DNA from: a virus
IMG/VR virus record: IMGVR_UViG_3300044797_000098
Span: 248,001 to 312,000 of that record
Reading direction: 5' to 3' (one strand)
DNA length: 64,000 nt
Below, one piece after another: positions 118 to 58,781 of the stretch. Position 1 is the first letter of the stretch. Each line of letters opens with the position of its first letter. Position numbers and translations under genes: made by a program. The notes below the pieces were generated by a model, which was not told the origin of the DNA, made no database searches, and saw only the letters and a list, made by a program, of their open reading frames with translations.

Positions 118-201
118 TTACTTGCTTGATTTTTTTCCCTTTTTAGGGCTGCTTTTTGACTTTGTCTTTGTAGACTTTGTCGATTTACTTTTCTTTGCCA
201 T
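118..201 (-). CDS. 27-residue Lys/Ser/Thr-rich basic peptide
   Basis: A short frame, MAKKSKSTKSTKTKSKSSPK..., has about 11 Lys and 9 Ser in 27 residues and no acidic residue. It resembles the disordered, nucleic-acid-binding tails of histone- or protamine-like proteins, but is too short for family assignment. The strongest support for expression is its ribosome binding site, a 12-base perfect match to the anti-SD ending one base before the ATG. It is the last gene before a strong terminator. Confidence 0.6.
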   Translation of the reverse strand: MAKKSKSTKSTKTKSKSSPKKGKKSSK

Positions 202-213
202 GATCACCTCCTT
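202..213 (-). promoter_or_regulatory. Extended perfect Shine-Dalgarno sequence
   Basis: AAGGAGGTGATC directly precedes the ATG of the basic peptide. It is fully complementary to the canonical 3' end of bacterial 16S rRNA (GATCACCTCCTT), far stronger than the usual AGG or GGAG sites elsewhere in the window. It implies high-level translation or ribosome trapping, and a host with a standard anti-SD. Confidence 0.75.
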
Positions 214-3008: not shown

Positions 3009-3556
3009 TATTGCCTATCTATAAAAATACCTACATTAATTCCAACGCGTTTCAATACTACTATATCATCAACTTTAACTTCTTCTTGGAAACTTTCATT
3101 TTCACCATACAAAATAGTCCTTGCTATACTTTCTACCTGTTGTATTGAGCCAGTATGAACAATTTTTCCTGATACAAGCAAAATATATTCTCCGACTTTT
3201 GGCTGACCTTGAACCGATTGTTCTTCCTGCGTAGTATTTTCTTCTTCTGCCGGTATTACTTTTGCTACTATATTTGGTGGCGGAAAAACATAATCATTAT
3301 TATCTATAATGTGTCCCTGTTCGACTGTTATTTCATTTCCATTATCATCAAAAATCCTGCCATCAACGGATGAAAAATCCGGATTATCTATTTTTTTCGA
3401 AGATTTCACCAATGGAACGGTTTTTCTTGGCATTTGTATTGGCTGTTTTCCTAATCGAACCCATTCAGGCTCATAAGCCTGATATTCAGGCTTATTATTC
3501 CTATTAGGATTTCTGATTATATCATCTTTATCCGACATCTTCTGTCCTCTTTGCAT
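3008..3556 (-). CDS. Unknown protein, possible virion component, 182 residues
   Basis: It shares a YEPEW segment with the following gene product (YEPEPRK), suggesting a common interaction motif. A basic Pro-rich region (about 35-55), a segment starting VDGRIFDDNGNEITVEQG, an acidic linker, and a C-terminal beta-rich domain (VGEYILLVSGKIVHTG) follow. No family recognised. It overlaps the bS21 gene by 29 bases; an internal ATG (MSDKDDIIRNP, residue 7) would shorten the overlap to 11 and may be the real start. Confidence 0.68.
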   Translation of the reverse strand: MQRGQKMSDKDDIIRNPNRNNKPEYQAYEPEWVRLGKQPIQMPRKTVPLVKSSKKIDNPDFSSVDGRIFDDNGNEITVEQGHIIDNNDYVFPPPNIVAKVIPAEEENTTQEEQSVQGQPKVGEYILLVSGKIVHTGSIQQVESIARTILYGENESFQEEVKVDDIVVLKRVGINVGIFIDRQ

Positions 3557-3911
3557 CTCGTTCTTGACGACGCTTTTGTTTTTTTGCTTCTTTCTTTATC
3601 TTTTCTTTTTCATATTCTCCGGAAGCAATTTTTTCTGCTTTGATTTTTTCTTCATATAAACGCTGCATTGTTTCTGCGTGCTTGCGACGTTTTTTGACGC
3701 TGGGTTTCTCATAACCCTGTTTCTCTTTATATTTAGCAAGAACACCGTCTGCTTGAACAAGCGAGCGGAATGTTTTGAATGCTCGATCGAAGTTATTTCC
3801 ATATACTTCGACTTGGAGCGGTTTAAGGTATTCCCAATCGAACTCAGGTGATGTTTCTTTTTTTAATGTTGTTGTTTCTTTTTTTGAGTATTTTTTATTT
3901 ATTTTCTTCAT
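3528..3911 (-). CDS. rpsU: Ribosomal protein bS21 homologue with long basic tail
   Basis: Residues about 30-85 match bS21 of the bacterial small subunit: a strand (PLQVEVYG), then NFDRAFKTFRSLVQADGVLAK, then YEKPSVKKRRKHAETMQRL, the typical YEKPS.kRkrk pattern. A roughly 30-residue N-terminal extension and a 45-residue Lys/Arg/Glu-rich C-terminal helix make it 127 residues, against about 70 in bacteria. bS21 sits by the mRNA exit near the anti-SD helix and aids initiation. Huge phages are known to carry bS21, probably to bias host ribosomes to phage mRNA. Its leader hairpin suggests special translational control. Confidence 0.88.
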   Translation of the reverse strand: MKKINKKYSKKETTTLKKETSPEFDWEYLKPLQVEVYGNNFDRAFKTFRSLVQADGVLAKYKEKQGYEKPSVKKRRKHAETMQRLYEEKIKAEKIASGEYEKEKIKKEAKKQKRRQERDAKRTEDVG

Positions 3912-3940
3912 TCACATACGTGTGTGTGCACACGCTCCTT
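3912..3940 (-). promoter_or_regulatory. bS21 leader: SD separated from ATG by a hairpin
   Basis: AAGGAG (3940-3935) lies 23 bases before the ATG, too far for normal initiation. Sixteen of those bases form a 6-bp GC-rich stem (CGTGTG / CACACG) with a 4-base loop (3919-3934). Folding leaves a spacing of 7 bases, which is optimal. Phage T4 gene 25 is a known case of an SD brought near by an intervening hairpin. Confidence 0.7.
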
Positions 3941-3957
3941 TGTTATTATATAACACG

Positions 3958-4260
3958 TTAGATTAAAATTGCAAGTTTTTCGTATTGTTCATCCGTTAGC
4001 AATAAATATCCTTGTTCAATAAGTTTCCTATCTACTTCTGCTCTGCATTCATCTAATTGATCTCTTCTATATTTAGTTTTGGACCAATTAAGTAAATTAT
4101 CACCTTTATATCTATAACACCAAGTATTTCTTTCATTTTCTGGATCAGCAATTATTATAGCGAATTGTTTATCTGTTCCAACTAAGACACGAATATCATG
4201 TGAATGAATATTATTGTAATATGATTTCCATGGTTCTAAAACTATTTTCTTTTCTCTCAT
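3958..4260 (-). CDS. Family A small protein (LEPWK ... GYLLLT) with C-terminal tail
   Basis: 100 residues, unknown function. It belongs to a paralogous set with an N-terminal L-x-P-W motif (VLEPWKSYY) and a conserved C-terminal stretch, DRKLIEQGYLLLTDEQ, running into EKLAILI. The nearest relative in the window is 6031-6345, which shares (D)RKLIE-GY-LLT-EQ. It sits between bS21 and topoisomerase I, two bases from the latter. The tail (Lys -6, Leu -2) is shared with over 30 other proteins here. Confidence 0.78.
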   Translation of the reverse strand: MREKKIVLEPWKSYYNNIHSHDIRVLVGTDKQFAIIIADPENERNTWCYRYKGDNLLNWSKTKYRRDQLDECRAEVDRKLIEQGYLLLTDEQYEKLAILI

Positions 4261-4261
4261 A

Positions 4262-6034
4262 TTACGCCACCATCTTTACATTTTCAATAGCCCTACACGC
4301 CGGATTTATGCATACATTAAATTTTCCGAACTTACCTTCTCGTTCGATCATATTTTGATTGCATTTTTTACATAAAACTTTATCGCCCAACTTGTTCCTA
4401 TATGCTGTTGCTAATTCTTTGGAAAATATATCATAAAACTGTTTTAATAGTTCTGTGTGCGTTATTTTACCTTCTGCTATCTTATCTAACTCCTCTTCGA
4501 TCTTCGAAGTAAAACTATAATCCATAAATGTAAATAATTCTGATAGACAATTAGTTATTTGTTTTCCCAATTCTGTCGGTTTATATGTATTATTAGTTTT
4601 CTCAACATAATGTCTATTTGATATTTTCTTAATAATTTCTGAAAAGGTCGATGGTCTTCCGATTTGTTTTTGCTCTAATTCTTTTAGCAACGAAGCATCA
4701 TTATACCTTGGCGGAGGCTGGGTATATTTTTGATCGGCTTTTATAGATTTATCGTCCAATAATAATTCTTGTTTTTCTATTAAATTTGGTATTTCAATTT
4801 TACCGGCATCAACATCACCGAATATTTTTAGATATCCACGATCTGCTAATGCTTTACCCGATGCCTTGAAAACAATTTTGTTATCGTTTTTATTCACAAT
4901 TTTTACATTTAAGGTGTTCCATATTGCCGGTGTCATTTGACTTGCAATAGCATACTGCCATATAACTGAATATAATTCCTTCTCATCACCACTCATATAA
5001 CCGCTATCAGGTAATGCATTTATATTTGTTGGACGGATTGCCTCATGTGCTGCCTGAGCGGTCTCTTTCGTTGCGTGTATATTTTTGGTTTTAGGCAGAT
5101 CATAATTATTATCTTTGATCCATTTTCTAATATCAGTGATGGCTTCTTCTGCCATCGATGTTGCGTCTGTTCTGATGTATGTAATCACTCCATTTTCATA
5201 TAACCCTTGGGCAACACTCATACATTTCTCTGGTTCCCAACCACGCTTAGCCATAACTTGTTGTAATGATGCCGTTATCAATGGTGCTGGCGGTTTCTCT
5301 TTCACTTGTTTGGAAACAACCTTTGATACAACGAAGTGCTTATTTTCTTGTATAAAAGAAACTAATTTATCTGATTGTTCTTTATTTTTTATTTTTCCAT
5401 CATACTTGGCTGAGAATGTCTCTCGTAATTGAGTTTGCAGCTTAATACCACAAGTCCAGTATTCTTCTGGTTTAAATATCTCGATCTCGTTTTCACGGTC
5501 TGAGATTAAGCGAGTGGCTACTGATTGAACTCTACCTGCCGAAAGATTATTAGCATACGCCGTCATAAGATATGGTGAAACGGTAAATCCAACGATACGA
5601 TCGAGGACGCGTCTTGCTTCCTGAGCCCTTACCATATTAGCATCTATTGCGTGCTTTTCTTTTATTCCTTTTTCTATACCATACTTAGTTATCTCATTAA
5701 ATACTGCCCTAAAAATTGGCTTGCCTGTGGATTTTAAAATATCGGCGACATCGGCACTAATTTTTTCACCCTCTCTATCTGCGTCCGTGCATAATAGTAT
5801 TTCATTACACTCACACGAAGCATTGATTATATTATCAATTACCTCAATTTTATCTTTGAGCAAAACGTAATGAGGTCGAAAATTGTTTTCGATATCGATT
5901 CCTATGCCGTGTTTGCCACCTTTTGCGAGGTCTTTCACATGACCTACCGATGCGACAACAACATAATTGTCCCCAAGATATTCCTTGATCTTCTTTATCT
6001 TGTTAGGAGACTCGACTATTACTAATGTTTTCAT
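4262..6034 (-). CDS. topA: DNA topoisomerase I (type IA)
   Basis: 590 residues, shorter than E. coli TopA (865). The N-terminal Toprim domain starts LVIVESPNK (Glu 8 catalytic) and carries DADREGE near 85 for Mg binding. The central gate holds the active-site Tyr in ITYIRTDATSM (about residue 285), with SAGRVQSVA and IGRPSTFSEII downstream. One C-terminal zinc finger (CKKC ... CINPAC) ends the protein. It relaxes negative supercoils by single-strand passage. The start overlaps the stop of the next family A gene by four bases. Confidence 0.96.
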   Translation of the reverse strand: MKTLVIVESPNKIKKIKEYLGDNYVVVASVGHVKDLAKGGKHGIGIDIENNFRPHYVLLKDKIEVIDNIINASCECNEILLCTDADREGEKISADVADILKSTGKPIFRAVFNEITKYGIEKGIKEKHAIDANMVRAQEARRVLDRIVGFTVSPYLMTAYANNLSAGRVQSVATRLISDRENEIEIFKPEEYWTCGIKLQTQLRETFSAKYDGKIKNKEQSDKLVSFIQENKHFVVSKVVSKQVKEKPPAPLITASLQQVMAKRGWEPEKCMSVAQGLYENGVITYIRTDATSMAEEAITDIRKWIKDNNYDLPKTKNIHATKETAQAAHEAIRPTNINALPDSGYMSGDEKELYSVIWQYAIASQMTPAIWNTLNVKIVNKNDNKIVFKASGKALADRGYLKIFGDVDAGKIEIPNLIEKQELLLDDKSIKADQKYTQPPPRYNDASLLKELEQKQIGRPSTFSEIIKKISNRHYVEKTNNTYKPTELGKQITNCLSELFTFMDYSFTSKIEEELDKIAEGKITHTELLKQFYDIFSKELATAYRNKLGDKVLCKKCNQNMIEREGKFGKFNVCINPACRAIENVKMVA

Positions 6035-6345
6035 ATCAATAACTTAAATTTCTCACATTGTTCCTGCGTCAATAAAATATATCCACATTCAATCAACTTA
6101 CGATCCATCTTTTCTTTTAATTCTTCTATCCTATCGGGAAGATCGTAAATCCACATGGGTTCGCATTTACCGTCGATATCTTGATATTCCCATCCCCATA
6201 ATTTGGTTAAACGAGATCGTGCAATACGGGCAATCGGTATGGGAAACATACTTTTATCATTTAATAAATATCGACCAATAGAATAATTCTCTTCATTAGA
6301 CTTATGATGACTTTCTCTATATGGCTCTAAATACGATCTATTCAT
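6031..6345 (-). CDS. Family A small protein (YLEPYR ... GYILLT) with C-terminal tail
   Basis: 104 residues of unknown function. It starts MNRSYLEPYRESHH, a variant of the L-x-P-W opening, and ends DRKLIECGYILLTQEQCEKFKLLI in overlapping pieces, the clearest form of the family A C-terminus. The middle (ARSRLTKLWGWEYQD) is not conserved with its paralogues. It flanks topoisomerase I on the other side from 3958-4260. The plus-strand gene at 6363 diverges from it with only 17 bases between. Confidence 0.78.
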   Translation of the reverse strand: MNRSYLEPYRESHHKSNEENYSIGRYLLNDKSMFPIPIARIARSRLTKLWGWEYQDIDGKCEPMWIYDLPDRIEELKEKMDRKLIECGYILLTQEQCEKFKLLI

Positions 6346-6362
6346 AATTCCGCATATAATTA

Positions 6363-6761
6363 ATGATTAATCTATCTTCCTTCTTCGAAGAAAGACTTGA
6401 AAATCTTGACTGTGATCCAACGACACGAGCATACATCACCGGGATTTTCACAAAATATAAAACTGCCACTGATGACCTATCCAAGTTAGGCTCTATCACG
6501 CTAATATACGCGGAAGCAAAAAATCAGCAATCGTTTCAAAAACTAAATAATATCGCTGACTGGCTATTTTGGGCCGAGACGATGTGCCCCGAATTTTTGA
6601 ACGATGCATCAAAAGATTATTACTACACTATTGGTCAATTAAGTTATTATTCTTGCTATAAATTAACCAATAAAAAATGGATTGTATTTGAGTCTCTTGC
6701 CGATCAATTCATACCGCTTACACACGAAACCCGAAAACTGATAAAATTAAATCAACAATAA
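6363..6761 (+). CDS. Unknown plus-strand protein, 132 residues
   Basis: One of the few plus-strand genes. It is helical, with DCDPTTRAYITGIFTKY near the N-terminus and a Trp/Tyr-rich centre (NIADWLFWAETMCPEFL, YYYTIGQLSYYSCYKL). No domain recognised and no zinc motif, signal or membrane segment. It converges on 6747-7028, overlapping its end by 15 bases, and lacks the shared C-terminal tail. With so little upstream space its promoter must lie inside the adjacent topA-side gene. Confidence 0.72.
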   Translation: MINLSSFFEERLENLDCDPTTRAYITGIFTKYKTATDDLSKLGSITLIYAEAKNQQSFQKLNNIADWLFWAETMCPEFLNDASKDYYYTIGQLSYYSCYKLTNKKWIVFESLADQFIPLTHETRKLIKLNQQ

Positions 6762-7028
6762 AAACTTATCTAACTCCTCATTCGTTATCAACGGATCTAA
6801 AACTCTATTGATCCATCTAACATCAGAATGACTGTCATTAAATACTGTTTCACCTAACCGTTCTGACGAATAAATAAAATATCCATTATAGGTATATGAA
6901 CATTCTATATACTCACCAACTGAATCTAAAAAATACCCACATTTACAACGTATTTCTACGCCACCAGAAAACGCCCTATGCAATGGTGTTGAACATCTTG
7001 GACAATTGAGAATGAATATAGTTTTCAT
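6747..7028 (-). CDS. Small zinc-ribbon protein with C-terminal tail
   Basis: 93 residues. An N-terminal zinc ribbon is formed by CPRC (about residue 9) and CKC (about 28). A Tyr-rich centre (YIECSYTYNGYFIYSSE) follows, ending TNEELDKFLLLI, a clear copy of the shared tail. It overlaps the phosphatase-like gene start as ATGA, so the two are probably translationally coupled. Function unknown; zinc ribbons this size usually bind nucleic acid or protein. Confidence 0.75.
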   Translation of the reverse strand: MKTIFILNCPRCSTPLHRAFSGGVEIRCKCGYFLDSVGEYIECSYTYNGYFIYSSERLGETVFNDSHSDVRWINRVLDPLITNEELDKFLLLI

Positions 7029-19563: not shown

Positions 19564-19811
19564 TATATTAACATCACGTATTTTTCTATTTTGTTTTTGC
19601 CATAAATGCGTTTGCCGTCAAGTTGAAAGATACGTTTTCCATTGATCCAGTATTCAGTATCGGTGCCATTTTTATATTCGACGGCCGGTCCGTCCGGATT
19701 ATGTAATTCACCATATTTATTATACCATACTTTAATAGGTTTATACCAATTATTTATATCTTTAATATAAAAAGGTTTTCCTAATAATCGATTTAACCAA
19801 TTAATCATCAT
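19563..19811 (-). CDS. GPA-repeat (MORN-like) small protein with C-terminal tail
   Basis: 82 residues. One repeat, ELHNPDGPAVEYKNGTDTEY, is followed by WINGKRIFQLDGKRIYGKN and the tail KIEKYVMLI. It aligns with the C-terminal third of the longer protein at 11090-11626 (NGPAIEYPDGRTEYWIN ... EKIFRYLMLV). Such repeats occur in many large phages and some toxin-antitoxin loci; activity unknown. Confidence 0.76.
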   Translation of the reverse strand: MMINWLNRLLGKPFYIKDINNWYKPIKVWYNKYGELHNPDGPAVEYKNGTDTEYWINGKRIFQLDGKRIYGKNKIEKYVMLI

Positions 19812-20572
19812 ATTAACATCGCATATTTTTCTGCTTCGGGATATTTTTCCACGAAGGTTTTAATTTCATTATTCAATACATATGGTGCTGATATTTTCTT
19901 TATCACGGATAGCGCTTTACCAAGATTTGGGTTTCCATACGTATCCAGTATTCTATATACCGACCAATTTCCGCTGGTAAAACTGGCATTTTGCGAATAT
20001 ATAGGATTTATATGTCTTTCAATGATTGTTTCATACATAATGTCTTCTAAAAACTCTGATAGTTTTGGTCGCTCTAATCGGAAAAATAATGGAAGCGGGT
20101 AAAATATATGGTGTGTTTTCACCTTAATAAATTCAATTAACATATCTTCTTCATTGTCATCCATATTATATTTTAGAAAATCTATAAAATCCAATGCGTT
20201 TTCATTTATTATGTAAGTAAAATACCCATCAATTAGGAACGGATATTTACCCGTTATTGCTTGTTGAAAAATAACATATTTGTTTTCGATGGAAAGATTT
20301 TTATGCTGTAATAATTTATGTATGTATGATATTTTATCAGCGTATTTTGGATATTTATCTATATCTAAAAATATGTTTGCAATTTCATTTTTTGTTATGG
20401 CTTTTATTTCTAAATCAGTGATGGACTGCTTTAACATATTTATTTCTGCTTGCAATAATTGATTGTTCGTCATTAATTCTTTTAAATAATTGCATTTTAT
20501 TTGTCCATTACCTCCCGTATAGACATAAGTTGTGCAATTCCATCCGCTGCATATCGAACATTGTTCTGACAT
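19808..20572 (-). CDS. Unknown 254-residue protein with C-terminal tail
   Basis: An N-terminal Cys cluster (CSICSGWNC, then QIKCNYLKEL) may bind zinc. A coiled coil (about 33-60) and a long helical region follow, with no recognised enzyme motif. The end, KYPEAEKYAMLI, matches the shared tail, making this the largest tailed protein. Overlaps the GPA-repeat gene by four bases. Confidence 0.7.
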   Translation of the reverse strand: MSEQCSICSGWNCTTYVYTGGNGQIKCNYLKELMTNNQLLQAEINMLKQSITDLEIKAITKNEIANIFLDIDKYPKYADKISYIHKLLQHKNLSIENKYVIFQQAITGKYPFLIDGYFTYIINENALDFIDFLKYNMDDNEEDMLIEFIKVKTHHIFYPLPLFFRLERPKLSEFLEDIMYETIIERHINPIYSQNASFTSGNWSVYRILDTYGNPNLGKALSVIKKISAPYVLNNEIKTFVEKYPEAEKYAMLI

Positions 20573-40969: not shown

Positions 40970-41385
40970 TTCAACAATACCGCCTTATCAATTAATTTGA
41001 TTACTTCTTCTTTTGATAGATTGCTAAAATCTTTACCCGGACTATAAACCCAATCAACTTTATGCTCCGTTTCAGAAAAATAAAAATAAAAATATGAACG
41101 TATTAATCCGTTTTTGTAGGAATTGGTTATCTCATAAACGTATCCATTATGTTTATATCGTAAGTTCCAATAGGTATGATTTTCATTATCTATATTTTGA
41201 AAATAATGGCTGTAATTAGTAATATCTTTATCAATATAGCATGCTATACTAAGTTCGAATGGATGTCCTTTTGGATATGCATCATTAGGATTATCACCCT
41301 TTTTTTCGTATTCCATATTTTTATTGTTGCACACCGGGCAAGTATGATACTTAATTATATTTTTATATTGTTCTAATTTATTCAT
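40966..41385 (-). CDS. Zinc-knuckle protein with C-terminal tail, 139 residues
   Basis: CPVCNNKNMEYEKKG near residue 17 is a CxxC knuckle, followed by beta-rich sequence (HTYWNLRYKHNGYVYEITNS, YFYFYFSETEHKVDWVY) and LSKEEVIKLIDKAVLLK, a tail with Ala at -5. Overlaps the family B gene as ATGA. Function unknown. Confidence 0.7.
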   Translation of the reverse strand: MNKLEQYKNIIKYHTCPVCNNKNMEYEKKGDNPNDAYPKGHPFELSIACYIDKDITNYSHYFQNIDNENHTYWNLRYKHNGYVYEITNSYKNGLIRSYFYFYFSETEHKVDWVYSPGKDFSNLSKEEVIKLIDKAVLLK

Positions 41386-41705
41386 ATCAATAAAAGATAT
41401 TTTTCAATTTCATCAACATACTTATGAAAACTCGGATTATATTCTATCATATCTTTATGATTTATAGCATTTATTATTAAATAAATATCTGTATAAAAAC
41501 TGTTATTATTTCCATAAAAATTAGCCACCATGGCGCGCATTAGATTTTTGGCAACATTTAGATTTCTTTGCTCATATACTCTGATGATTGCTTCCCATCC
41601 AGAATGTTTTAAATTTTCCATTTCTATTGTTTCTGTAAAATCCGTATCTTCTATTGTGAAGAATAACTTATTGCCTTTATAGACACCGCTACCGCGAATA
41701 AACAT
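41382..41705 (-). CDS. Family B small protein (DTDF ... EKYLLLI), copy 1
   Basis: 107 residues. Family B signature: TIEDTDFTETIEM, then GWEAIIRVYEQRNLNVAKNL, then KYVDEIEKYLLLI. It shares the GWE-x-I-x-x-V-Y-E core with the neighbour at 41715. Six members in the window: 41382, 41715, 44117, 44402, 47099 and 53700. A helical domain ending in a perfect tail. Function unknown. Confidence 0.78.
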   Translation of the reverse strand: MFIRGSGVYKGNKLFFTIEDTDFTETIEMENLKHSGWEAIIRVYEQRNLNVAKNLMRAMVANFYGNNNSFYTDIYLIINAINHKDMIEYNPSFHKYVDEIEKYLLLI

Positions 41706-44401: not shown

Positions 44402-44716
44402 CTACATCAATAATAGATATTTTTCAACATCGTCAGCATATTTAATGTAATCAGGCACATGTATTTTGCATTGTTCTATGTGTTGATACGCGCGATAGGT
44501 ATTATTACCTAACCAATGTGCAATAGTAGCCGAAACATTTAATTGTCTTTCTTTACAAACATTTATGATTATCTTTACGCATTCATACACATAAGGATTA
44601 CCACTATTATTTATCATTCCAACTACTACTTCTTCTGGCTCAAAATCTGAATCATATATAGTATAGGTTGCGTGCGCATCCTTTCGACAATGTCCGAAAC
44701 GGATTTCAGTAATCAT
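44402..44716 (-). CDS. Family B small protein, copy 4
   Basis: 104 residues: TYTIYDSDFEPEEVVVGMIN, VKIIINVCKERQLNVSATIA, and KYADDVEKYLLLM. The stop is followed closely by the next family B gene and the start is shared with the RNA ligase stop. Function unknown. Confidence 0.78.
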   Translation of the reverse strand: MITEIRFGHCRKDAHATYTIYDSDFEPEEVVVGMINNSGNPYVYECVKIIINVCKERQLNVSATIAHWLGNNTYRAYQHIEQCKIHVPDYIKYADDVEKYLLLM

Positions 44717-53699: not shown

Positions 53700-54020
53700 T
53701 TAAAGTAGTATTAGGTATTTATCTATATCCTCCTTATATTTATTAAATATAGCGCATGCTAAATGTGTATTATACGCACTTTTATATTTAAAATACTCAA
53801 TAGTATCCGGTATTGTATAACCTGTCTCTTTGTCTATTCTTAAAAATCTAATTATATTTAACGCAACATTAAGTTTTCGTTTTTCATATATTCTGACGAC
53901 TCCATCTAATATGGAGTTTGATCCACCACCATCCCCTCTGTTTTTAACGATATCAATAAAATCTGTATCTATTACTTTTATTGATTTTGTTTTGGAATTA
54001 TATTCTGCATTAATTAACAT
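53700..54020 (-). CDS. Family B small protein, copy 6
   Basis: 106 residues: KVIDTDFIDIVKNRGDGGGS, then LDGVVRIYEKRKLNVALNII and NKYKEDIDKYLILL. It keeps DTDF, VYEK-like core and a perfect tail. It is 6 kb from the others and stands between a plus-strand HNH gene and the promoter of the winged-helix gene, so it is likely a relict of a larger cluster. Confidence 0.77.
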   Translation of the reverse strand: MLINAEYNSKTKSIKVIDTDFIDIVKNRGDGGGSNSILDGVVRIYEKRKLNVALNIIRFLRIDKETGYTIPDTIEYFKYKSAYNTHLACAIFNKYKEDIDKYLILL

Positions 54021-57623: not shown

Positions 57624-58781
57624 ATGATCCTCTTACGAACCGTCAAAATCTTTCTCACAAACGCAAAAGAGCAACTTTTGCCTACGGCTATTGCTTATAC
57701 TAACGCTTATAACTACGCTTGTCAAGACGGTTATGACGGGAAAATAACATCAGGATACGATCTCCATAAACGAACTTATAGCACAATGCGTCAAACGCTT
57801 CCTGCTCAATTAGCCGTTTCTGCAAGAACCAAGGCAACAGAATCATTAGTTTCAATAGCAGGGCTAAAACGAAAAGGTAAAAAGACTTCGTGCCCGAAGA
57901 GCAAACTTTGCAGCATCCGTTATGATGCCCGTTCTTATTCGTTATGGTTAGAACGAAACGAAGTTTCCCTTCTCACATTGGAAGGAAGAAAACGCTTTGC
58001 GTTTTCTTTACCAGAATGTTATAGTCAATACAGAACATGGAAAAATAAATCAGCAGAATTGAAAATCTACGGTAAACAAGTAATACTAAACGTTGTATTC
58101 GAAAAAGAGATTACAGACACAGAACCAAACGGTAGAATCATAGGTTGCGATAGAGGTGAAAACAATTTAGCCGTTTTGTCAAACGGTAAGTTTTTCGGTG
58201 GCAGAAAAATCAAACAGAAAGCGAGACAGTATAGGAAGTTGAGAACAGAGTTGCAAAAGAAAGGCACGCGTTCAGCAAAAAGACACCTTCGGAAAATACG
58301 ATCGAAGGAGAGACGGTTCAGGGCTGACGTTAACCATTGCATATCGAAACAGATAGTAGCACTTTTGCAAACTGGTGATACGGTTGTATTAGAGAAACTA
58401 ACGGATATTAGAAAGAATATGAAACGGAAAAAGAAACATATGGCAGACGCTCATTCGTGGTCTTTCTATCAGTTAGAACAGTTTCTCATATACAAGGCGA
58501 TGGCAAAAGGTATAAACGTTGTTTTTATAGACGGAAGATATACCAGCCAATCGTGCAGTAAATGTGGCAATATAAGAAAAGCAAACAGAAAAGGAAGCAG
58601 ATTTAATTGCAGAGAATGCGGTTATACTTGCGATGCCGATCTGAATGCGTCTTTCAACATTGCTCAAAAATATCAAGCGGGGCTTCGCCCCGCTGGATCG
58701 GGCTCAGTCAATAGTCCTAACGGAAGCAATTCCAATGTATCGTCAACGGCAACGTTGGCAGATACAAGCCCTTGCCTTTAG
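57624..58781 (+). CDS. tnpB: TnpB RNA-guided endonuclease, IS605 OrfB
   Basis: 385 residues, normal for TnpB. The N-terminal domain has AYTNAYNYACQDGYDG. The RuvC Asp is in GCDRGENNLAVLSNGK, the Glu in VVLEKLTDIRKNM, and the zinc ribbon SCSKCGNIRKANRKG...CRECGYTCDADLNASFNIA carries the last Asp. All catalytic residues are present. TnpB cuts DNA with a guide from its own RNA (omega RNA) read from the gene's 3' end. The last ~35 residues overlap the RNA scaffold and look less protein-like. Confidence 0.95.
   Translation: MILLRTVKIFLTNAKEQLLPTAIAYTNAYNYACQDGYDGKITSGYDLHKRTYSTMRQTLPAQLAVSARTKATESLVSIAGLKRKGKKTSCPKSKLCSIRYDARSYSLWLERNEVSLLTLEGRKRFAFSLPECYSQYRTWKNKSAELKIYGKQVILNVVFEKEITDTEPNGRIIGCDRGENNLAVLSNGKFFGGRKIKQKARQYRKLRTELQKKGTRSAKRHLRKIRSKERRFRADVNHCISKQIVALLQTGDTVVLEKLTDIRKNMKRKKKHMADAHSWSFYQLEQFLIYKAMAKGINVVFIDGRYTSQSCSKCGNIRKANRKGSRFNCRECGYTCDADLNASFNIAQKYQAGLRPAGSGSVNSPNGSNSNVSSTATLADTSPCL

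Follow-up and report, generated by a model that had tools for sequence, protein, structure and literature searches.

The gene analysed here is a phage homologue of the gene for ribosomal protein bS21. It codes for a protein extended at both ends, it lies in a conserved neighbourhood, and it is preceded by a Shine-Dalgarno (SD)-hairpin-AUG layout that related phages keep despite replacement of its sequence. Retention of the hairpin while its letters are rewritten suggests that bS21 production is controlled at the protein's own working site. A split ribosome-binding site, driving a bS21 that replaces the bS21 of the host, is the best explanation of these data and in our judgement a probable one.

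The bS21 gene and its neighbourhood

Among ribosomal proteins, bS21 is by a wide margin the one that phages carry most often. The window, the whole stretch of 64,000 nucleotides analysed, covers positions 248001-312000 of a 406,470-base virus record. The bS21 gene and the genes around it are as follows.

3528-3911, minus strand: bS21 gene, 127 aa, ATG start; Pfam core at residues 33-85, N-terminal extension at 1-32, predicted extra C-terminal helix at 99-126
3909-3911, minus strand: ATG start codon of bS21, read from the sequence, with an in-frame UGA directly upstream (AUGUGAAUG)
3958-4260, minus strand: unknown 100-aa ORF directly upstream of bS21, ending in a recurrent EKxxILI tail
4262-6034, minus strand: DNA topoisomerase I, found next to bS21 on its upstream side in 50 related phage loci
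3008-3538, minus strand: 'next', a conserved gene without known family, which begins within bS21 and shares its final 11 nt; a relative lies 3′ of bS21 in 40 phage loci
2307-3008, minus strand: 'next2', a conserved gene with a C-terminal CarboxypepD_reg-like domain scoring below the Pfam cut-off

The product of ORF 3528-3911 matched Pfam Ribosomal_S21 (PF01165) over residues 33-85 with E=8.7e-15 and 54.6 bits (curated cut-off 27 bits), NCBIfam TIGR00030 with 47.2 bits (cut-off 28.95 bits), and PHROG 21469, 'ribosomal protein S21'. It was the sole bS21 match across the whole record, in which it occupies positions 251528-251911. Because of the in-frame UGA immediately 5′ of the ATG, translation cannot begin earlier and the N terminus cannot be longer. 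Genes for the terminase large subunit (TerL; phrog_675, 5e-57, record positions 208782-210635), portal and head protease are found at 197-211 kb of the record, about 40-55 kb from bS21, and the phage reading is therefore sound. These matches, in a virus record with TerL, bear out the original prediction that the ORF encodes a phage bS21.

A scan of IMG/VR yielded 80 related loci, many of them on large contigs of up to 480 kb. In the related phage loci the neighbours of bS21 include topoisomerase I (50 loci), 'next' (40) and 'next2' (50). The long bS21 is thus a stable member of a huge-phage cluster consisting of topA, bS21 and two unknown genes. The product of 'next' has an N-terminal motif, NPNR..Y.PE..RLG, and a compact C-terminal domain (GEYILLV.GK...LKRVGI); searches for a Pfam family, a PHROG family and a significant fold match gave none. 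No relatives were found among 50,697 isolated-phage records. Extended bS21 of huge phages is an already known kind of gene: a 2020 paper describes huge phages with N-terminally extended rpS21 and puts forward mRNA selection as its role (Al-Shayeb et al., PMC7162821).

Extensions and predicted fold of the protein

Alignment with E. coli bS21 gave 32 additional residues at the N terminus and 27 past the C terminus, or 42 past the Pfam domain, close to the roughly 30 N-terminal and 45 C-terminal extra residues originally estimated. The N-terminal extension has a median length of 39 residues among 44 relatives, and the sequence of the extensions varies strongly from phage to phage. In the AF2 model the two bS21 helices are retained (residues 41-64 and 72-97), with YEKP at 67-70 between them, and a third helix is added at 99-126; residues 1-21 are of low confidence (<50 pLDDT). 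A Foldseek search with this model returned three matches in all, none of them significant, each to a mitoribosomal small-subunit chain, of which two are named bS21m.

Codon differences between the window and its relative L003 were counted separately for the two ends of the protein. Residues 87-116 showed seven synonymous and no amino-acid-changing differences, and the N-terminal extension showed five of each kind. The C-terminal helix is therefore kept, a sign that the protein is under selection, whereas the N-terminal tail is only loosely constrained. E. coli bS21 lines the mRNA exit channel, and its N-terminal arginines R17 and R21 contact the SD (PMC10123108). In our alignment 48 of 49 phage proteins have a basic residue at the R17 position, and 41 of the 49 have A or S at the R21 position.

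A probable split ribosome-binding site in the bS21 leader

The leader contains the following elements.

3945-3950, minus strand: TATAAT, a possible -10 box on weak evidence; the stretch TTATATAA is conserved in L002 and L003
3935-3941, minus strand: Shine-Dalgarno sequence AAAGGAG, 23 nt from the AUG and so beyond the normal distance
3919-3934, minus strand: hairpin CGUGUG-CACA-CACACG, 6 bp, between SD and AUG; paired with other sequence in relatives
3912-3918, minus strand: 7-nt single-stranded linker UAUGUGA between hairpin and start codon

The original prediction had noted an odd SD arrangement at 3912-3940. The arrangement is real, consisting of a distant AAAGGAG with a hairpin between it and the start codon. 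Folding of the hairpin (-6.5 kcal/mol) would reduce the SD-AUG gap from 23 to 7 nt. Its predicted pair probabilities are 0.99-1.0 and the AUG is open. When all starts called mechanically in the window are compared, the SD-to-start region of bS21 is the most stable (lowest energy). A search of the window against Rfam found no known RNA family.

Extra AUG codons were also seen ahead of bS21. An AUG-UGA lies just before the start in the window (3912-3918); in L002 and L003 an out-of-frame AUG just upstream opens a 6-codon frame (MNEENK*), and in L039 there is a 7-codon frame. These AUGs could be decoys or reinitiation sites.

Conservation of the hairpin in related phages

The SD-hairpin-AUG layout was found in the window, L002, L003, L006/L037, L039 and L040, and weakly in L034. 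These seven layout-bearing rows make up one side of one branch of the bS21 tree (support 92/83), on which the label needs a single change. The layout thus has one origin, in one clade of seven phages.

Across the clade nearly every base pair of the stem differs and pairing is retained, with one weak case. Five lineages carry the hairpin, with short and in part repetitive stems. In a comparison of the arms by script, the two arms of one phage paired at 30/30 positions and arms swapped between lineages at 52/120. In the inner stem pairs both partners have changed (G-C, C-G and U-A are examples), and L040 has two loop bases more than L039, its stem being unaffected. A G-U pair in the L006 stem is the sole sign that favours an RNA structure over a DNA dyad. 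The effective SD-AUG spacing after folding is 4-13 nt among clade members; the 13 nt retained in L039 and L040 is long for an SD. The weak case, L034, has just three G-C pairs within the spacer, and its AUG is buried. The chance of any single hairpin is a few per cent or less, and shuffles of the individual leaders gave 0 to 0.7%; but that the hairpin recurs with its sequence replaced is difficult to account for unless pairing itself is selected.

In other huge-phage bS21 genes, the best SD-like match lies more than 10 nt from the ATG in 29 of 37 cases, compared with 47 of 135 control ORFs. These distant matches are a lead only, because most are 4-5 nt long and the genes are related. No convincing hairpin was seen between SD and start in the other huge-phage bS21 leaders. 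Three further loci matched the leader pattern: L026 was dropped, as there is no bS21 at that site, and the matches in L022 and L023 were attributed to chance. Separately, L006 carries another palindrome, a very long one with a 14-bp stem (around TACACACGCGTGTGTA), about 30-80 nt 5′ of its bS21 start at 2869 (plus strand), upstream of the bS21 SD.

Shine-Dalgarno usage elsewhere in the phage

Ordinary SD sequences were observed at 68 of 301 genes compared with 21 expected from shuffled sequence, about 16% of the genes above expectation. Phage starts are preceded by a clear peak of G at -12 to -8, which indicates that the host reads SDs at least in part.

The original prediction had also pointed to an unusual SD at 202-213. 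That site, AAGGAGGTGATC, is indeed a 12-nt match to the 16S 3′ end, but it is isolated, there being a single copy of the extended SD GGAGGTGATC in the whole record. The sequence abuts, as a perfect SD, the ATG of a 27-residue lysine/serine-rich ORF (118-213, minus strand; MAKKSKSTKSTK...). Upstream of this ORF a CCUC could pair with the GAGG of the SD, and beyond that, in the same direction, there is an 8-bp stem (GCCATCAA/TTGATGGC). The two SD arrangements lend no support to the proposed discrimination of phage mRNA, since neither is phage-wide: the split SD is special to bS21 and the 12-nt SD occurs once. The split SD is more plausibly a means of regulating how much bS21 the gene itself makes.

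A recurrent C-terminal tail and probable TnpB-like genes

A tail resembling E..IEK[YL]LLLI ends 68 of the 302 ORFs called between record positions 188001 and 372000 (the window plus L027-L032), a frequency of 22.5%, compared with 1.4% of internal 9-mers. Examples in the window, all on the minus strand, are 3958-4260, 6031-6345, 6747-7028, 19808-20572, 41382-41705, 44402-44716 and 53700-54020. Lysine is found at -6 in 47/67 tails and E/D at -7 in 45/67, positions that were not fixed by the search. When the last 14 residues were removed, 67 tail ORFs fell into 47 sequence clusters, and they are therefore mostly unrelated small proteins (median 94 aa). The tail is present in the close relatives L002 and L003 and absent from the other loci. 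A sorting, packaging or degradation tag is a possible function, and the tail may perhaps be newer as a finding than the split site of bS21.

Inspection by eye also revealed a probable TnpB-like (zinc-ribbon transposase-associated) gene at 57624-58781 on the plus strand, opposite to most genes. A second TnpB-like ORF may be present at record positions 328127-329356.

Proposed mechanism and alternative explanations

The phage bS21 most likely takes the place of host bS21 on the 30S platform during infection. Its additional C-terminal helix would begin at the end which in E. coli forms a bridge between 16S rRNA and bS1 (PMC10123108). In the leader, the 6-bp hairpin would fold the spacer, bringing the SD close enough to the AUG for the two to be read as a unit. 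T4 genes 25 and 38 work in this way, and there destabilising the hairpin lowers translation (PMC3014915). We infer the use of the hairpin in initiation, the incorporation of bS21 into ribosomes and any effect on mRNA choice. Pelagiphage HTVC008M bS21 does enter E. coli ribosomes, and translation in vitro is then cut to about 5% (PMC6375957). Replacement, therefore, need not help translation.

Any hairpin placed between SD and AUG necessarily lies next to bS21 at the mRNA exit, and ribosomes carrying host bS21, phage bS21 or no bS21 would therefore read the spacer differently. The hairpin, placed at the working site of bS21, may thus perhaps sense bS21. That the folded spacer is a built-in sensor, by which the phage gene meters its own takeover of ribosomes without a separate regulator, is an idea to which we give a low probability. 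Of similarly low probability, though a little higher, is a feedback operator, in which free, very basic phage bS21 or bS21-replete ribosomes would reject the folded spacer and the gene would shut off. The hairpin would lie in the exit channel formed by bS21, which touches the SD in E. coli (PMC10123108), F. johnsoniae bS21 autoregulates through its own SD (PMC9976891), and the excess of distant SD-like matches in other huge-phage bS21 genes is in keeping with such control. However, the F. johnsoniae system uses an SD of great length together with an anti-SD that is hidden, whereas the phage SD has 7 nt and the Tyr54 register lacks an aromatic residue in every phage protein compared; moreover, stem and loop differ in sequence among the phages, as would not be expected of a specific protein-RNA contact. 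That last observation also weighs against a DNA operator or promoter-related dyad unrelated to translation, since a sequence-specific site would keep its sequence, and here the arms are replaced in each lineage with pairing kept. Perfect inverted repeats can bind proteins, a dyad on DNA would give the same pattern, and a TATAAT-like box lies just upstream of the palindrome; but the hairpin always falls between SD and AUG, and the L006 stem has its G-U pair. We regard a DNA operator as very unlikely.

Two alternatives concern the protein and not its leader. The extended bS21 might make ribosomes favour phage mRNAs, as the original prediction held. This hypothesis is published for the N-terminal extensions of huge-phage bS21 (PMC7162821) and for late-expressed phage bS21 (PMC9723584), and the pattern of a basic R17 position with A or S at R21 is compatible with it. 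On the other hand there is no common leader signal, most phage genes being without an SD and the split layout being special to bS21, and the extensions differ strongly in sequence among phages; we consider this preference possible but somewhat doubtful. Alternatively, the phage bS21 might poison or slow host translation with no redirection. The low activity of E. coli ribosomes containing pelagiphage bS21 (PMC6375957) is what such poisoning would produce, but host and phage were mismatched in that experiment, and the stable cluster with topoisomerase I, not with known takeover genes, would speak against it. Poisoning seems improbable to us, and a split site driving a replacement bS21 is the explanation we prefer.

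Comparison with known systems

The rpS21 described by Al-Shayeb et al. (PMC7162821) resembles the present protein in its huge-phage origin, its long N-terminal extension and the role proposed for it; the leader, the C-terminal helix and the topoisomerase I neighbourhood described here go unmentioned in the passages of that paper considered here. The bS21 of freshwater Bacteroidetes myophages (Chen et al. 2022, PMC9723584) is likewise proposed to replace host bS21. Those phages have an aromatic residue at the Y54 position, whereas Q83 is in that register here, and their bS21 lies among TerL/MCP genes on the opposite strand, whereas TerL is more than 40 kb away here. The bS21 of HTVC008M (PMC6375957) is also phage-encoded, but has 67 aa and is without long extensions.

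In F. johnsoniae, too, the bS21 gene (rpsU) has a special SD that could sense ribosomal bS21 (PMC9976891). That system combines an extended SD, bS21-less ribosomes and a hidden anti-SD, whereas the phage has a short SD, a folded spacer and no Y54. The F. johnsoniae Tyr54, confirmed in the PDB sequence, aligns with an aromatic residue in 0 of 62 distinct phage proteins. Control of the F. johnsoniae kind is marked by an SD pairing energy below about -13 kcal/mol and an occluded anti-SD; how far the 7-nt SD and missing Y54 of this phage depart from it would depend on the ribosome of the host. In Bacteroidetes the aromatic residue at this position hides the anti-SD. Sequestration of the anti-SD in that manner was rejected as a misfit on account of the Y54 register and the G peak at -12 to -8. 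A 4-kb contig from a Bacteroidetes MAG, encoding a bS21 of 62 aa (51% identity), was set aside as a candidate for the host, being probably a phage fragment itself.

We found no report, in the open-licence literature, of a structured leader or split ribosome-binding site on a phage bS21 gene. The closest parallel is T4 genes 25 and 38, in which a hairpin between SD and AUG shortens the gap from 27 to 11 nt or from 22 to 5 nt (PMC3014915), as compared with 23 to 7 nt here. The split site of gene 25 is confined to close relatives, as is the present one. The T4 sites were tested by experiment, whereas that of bS21 is read from sequence and lies on a ribosomal-protein gene of unrelated huge phages. 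The 'folded spacer' of T4 is thereby widened from a T-even oddity to unrelated huge phages, and a conserved split start on a gene whose product belongs to the mRNA exit channel provides a small, testable RNA element for bS21 dose and initiation.
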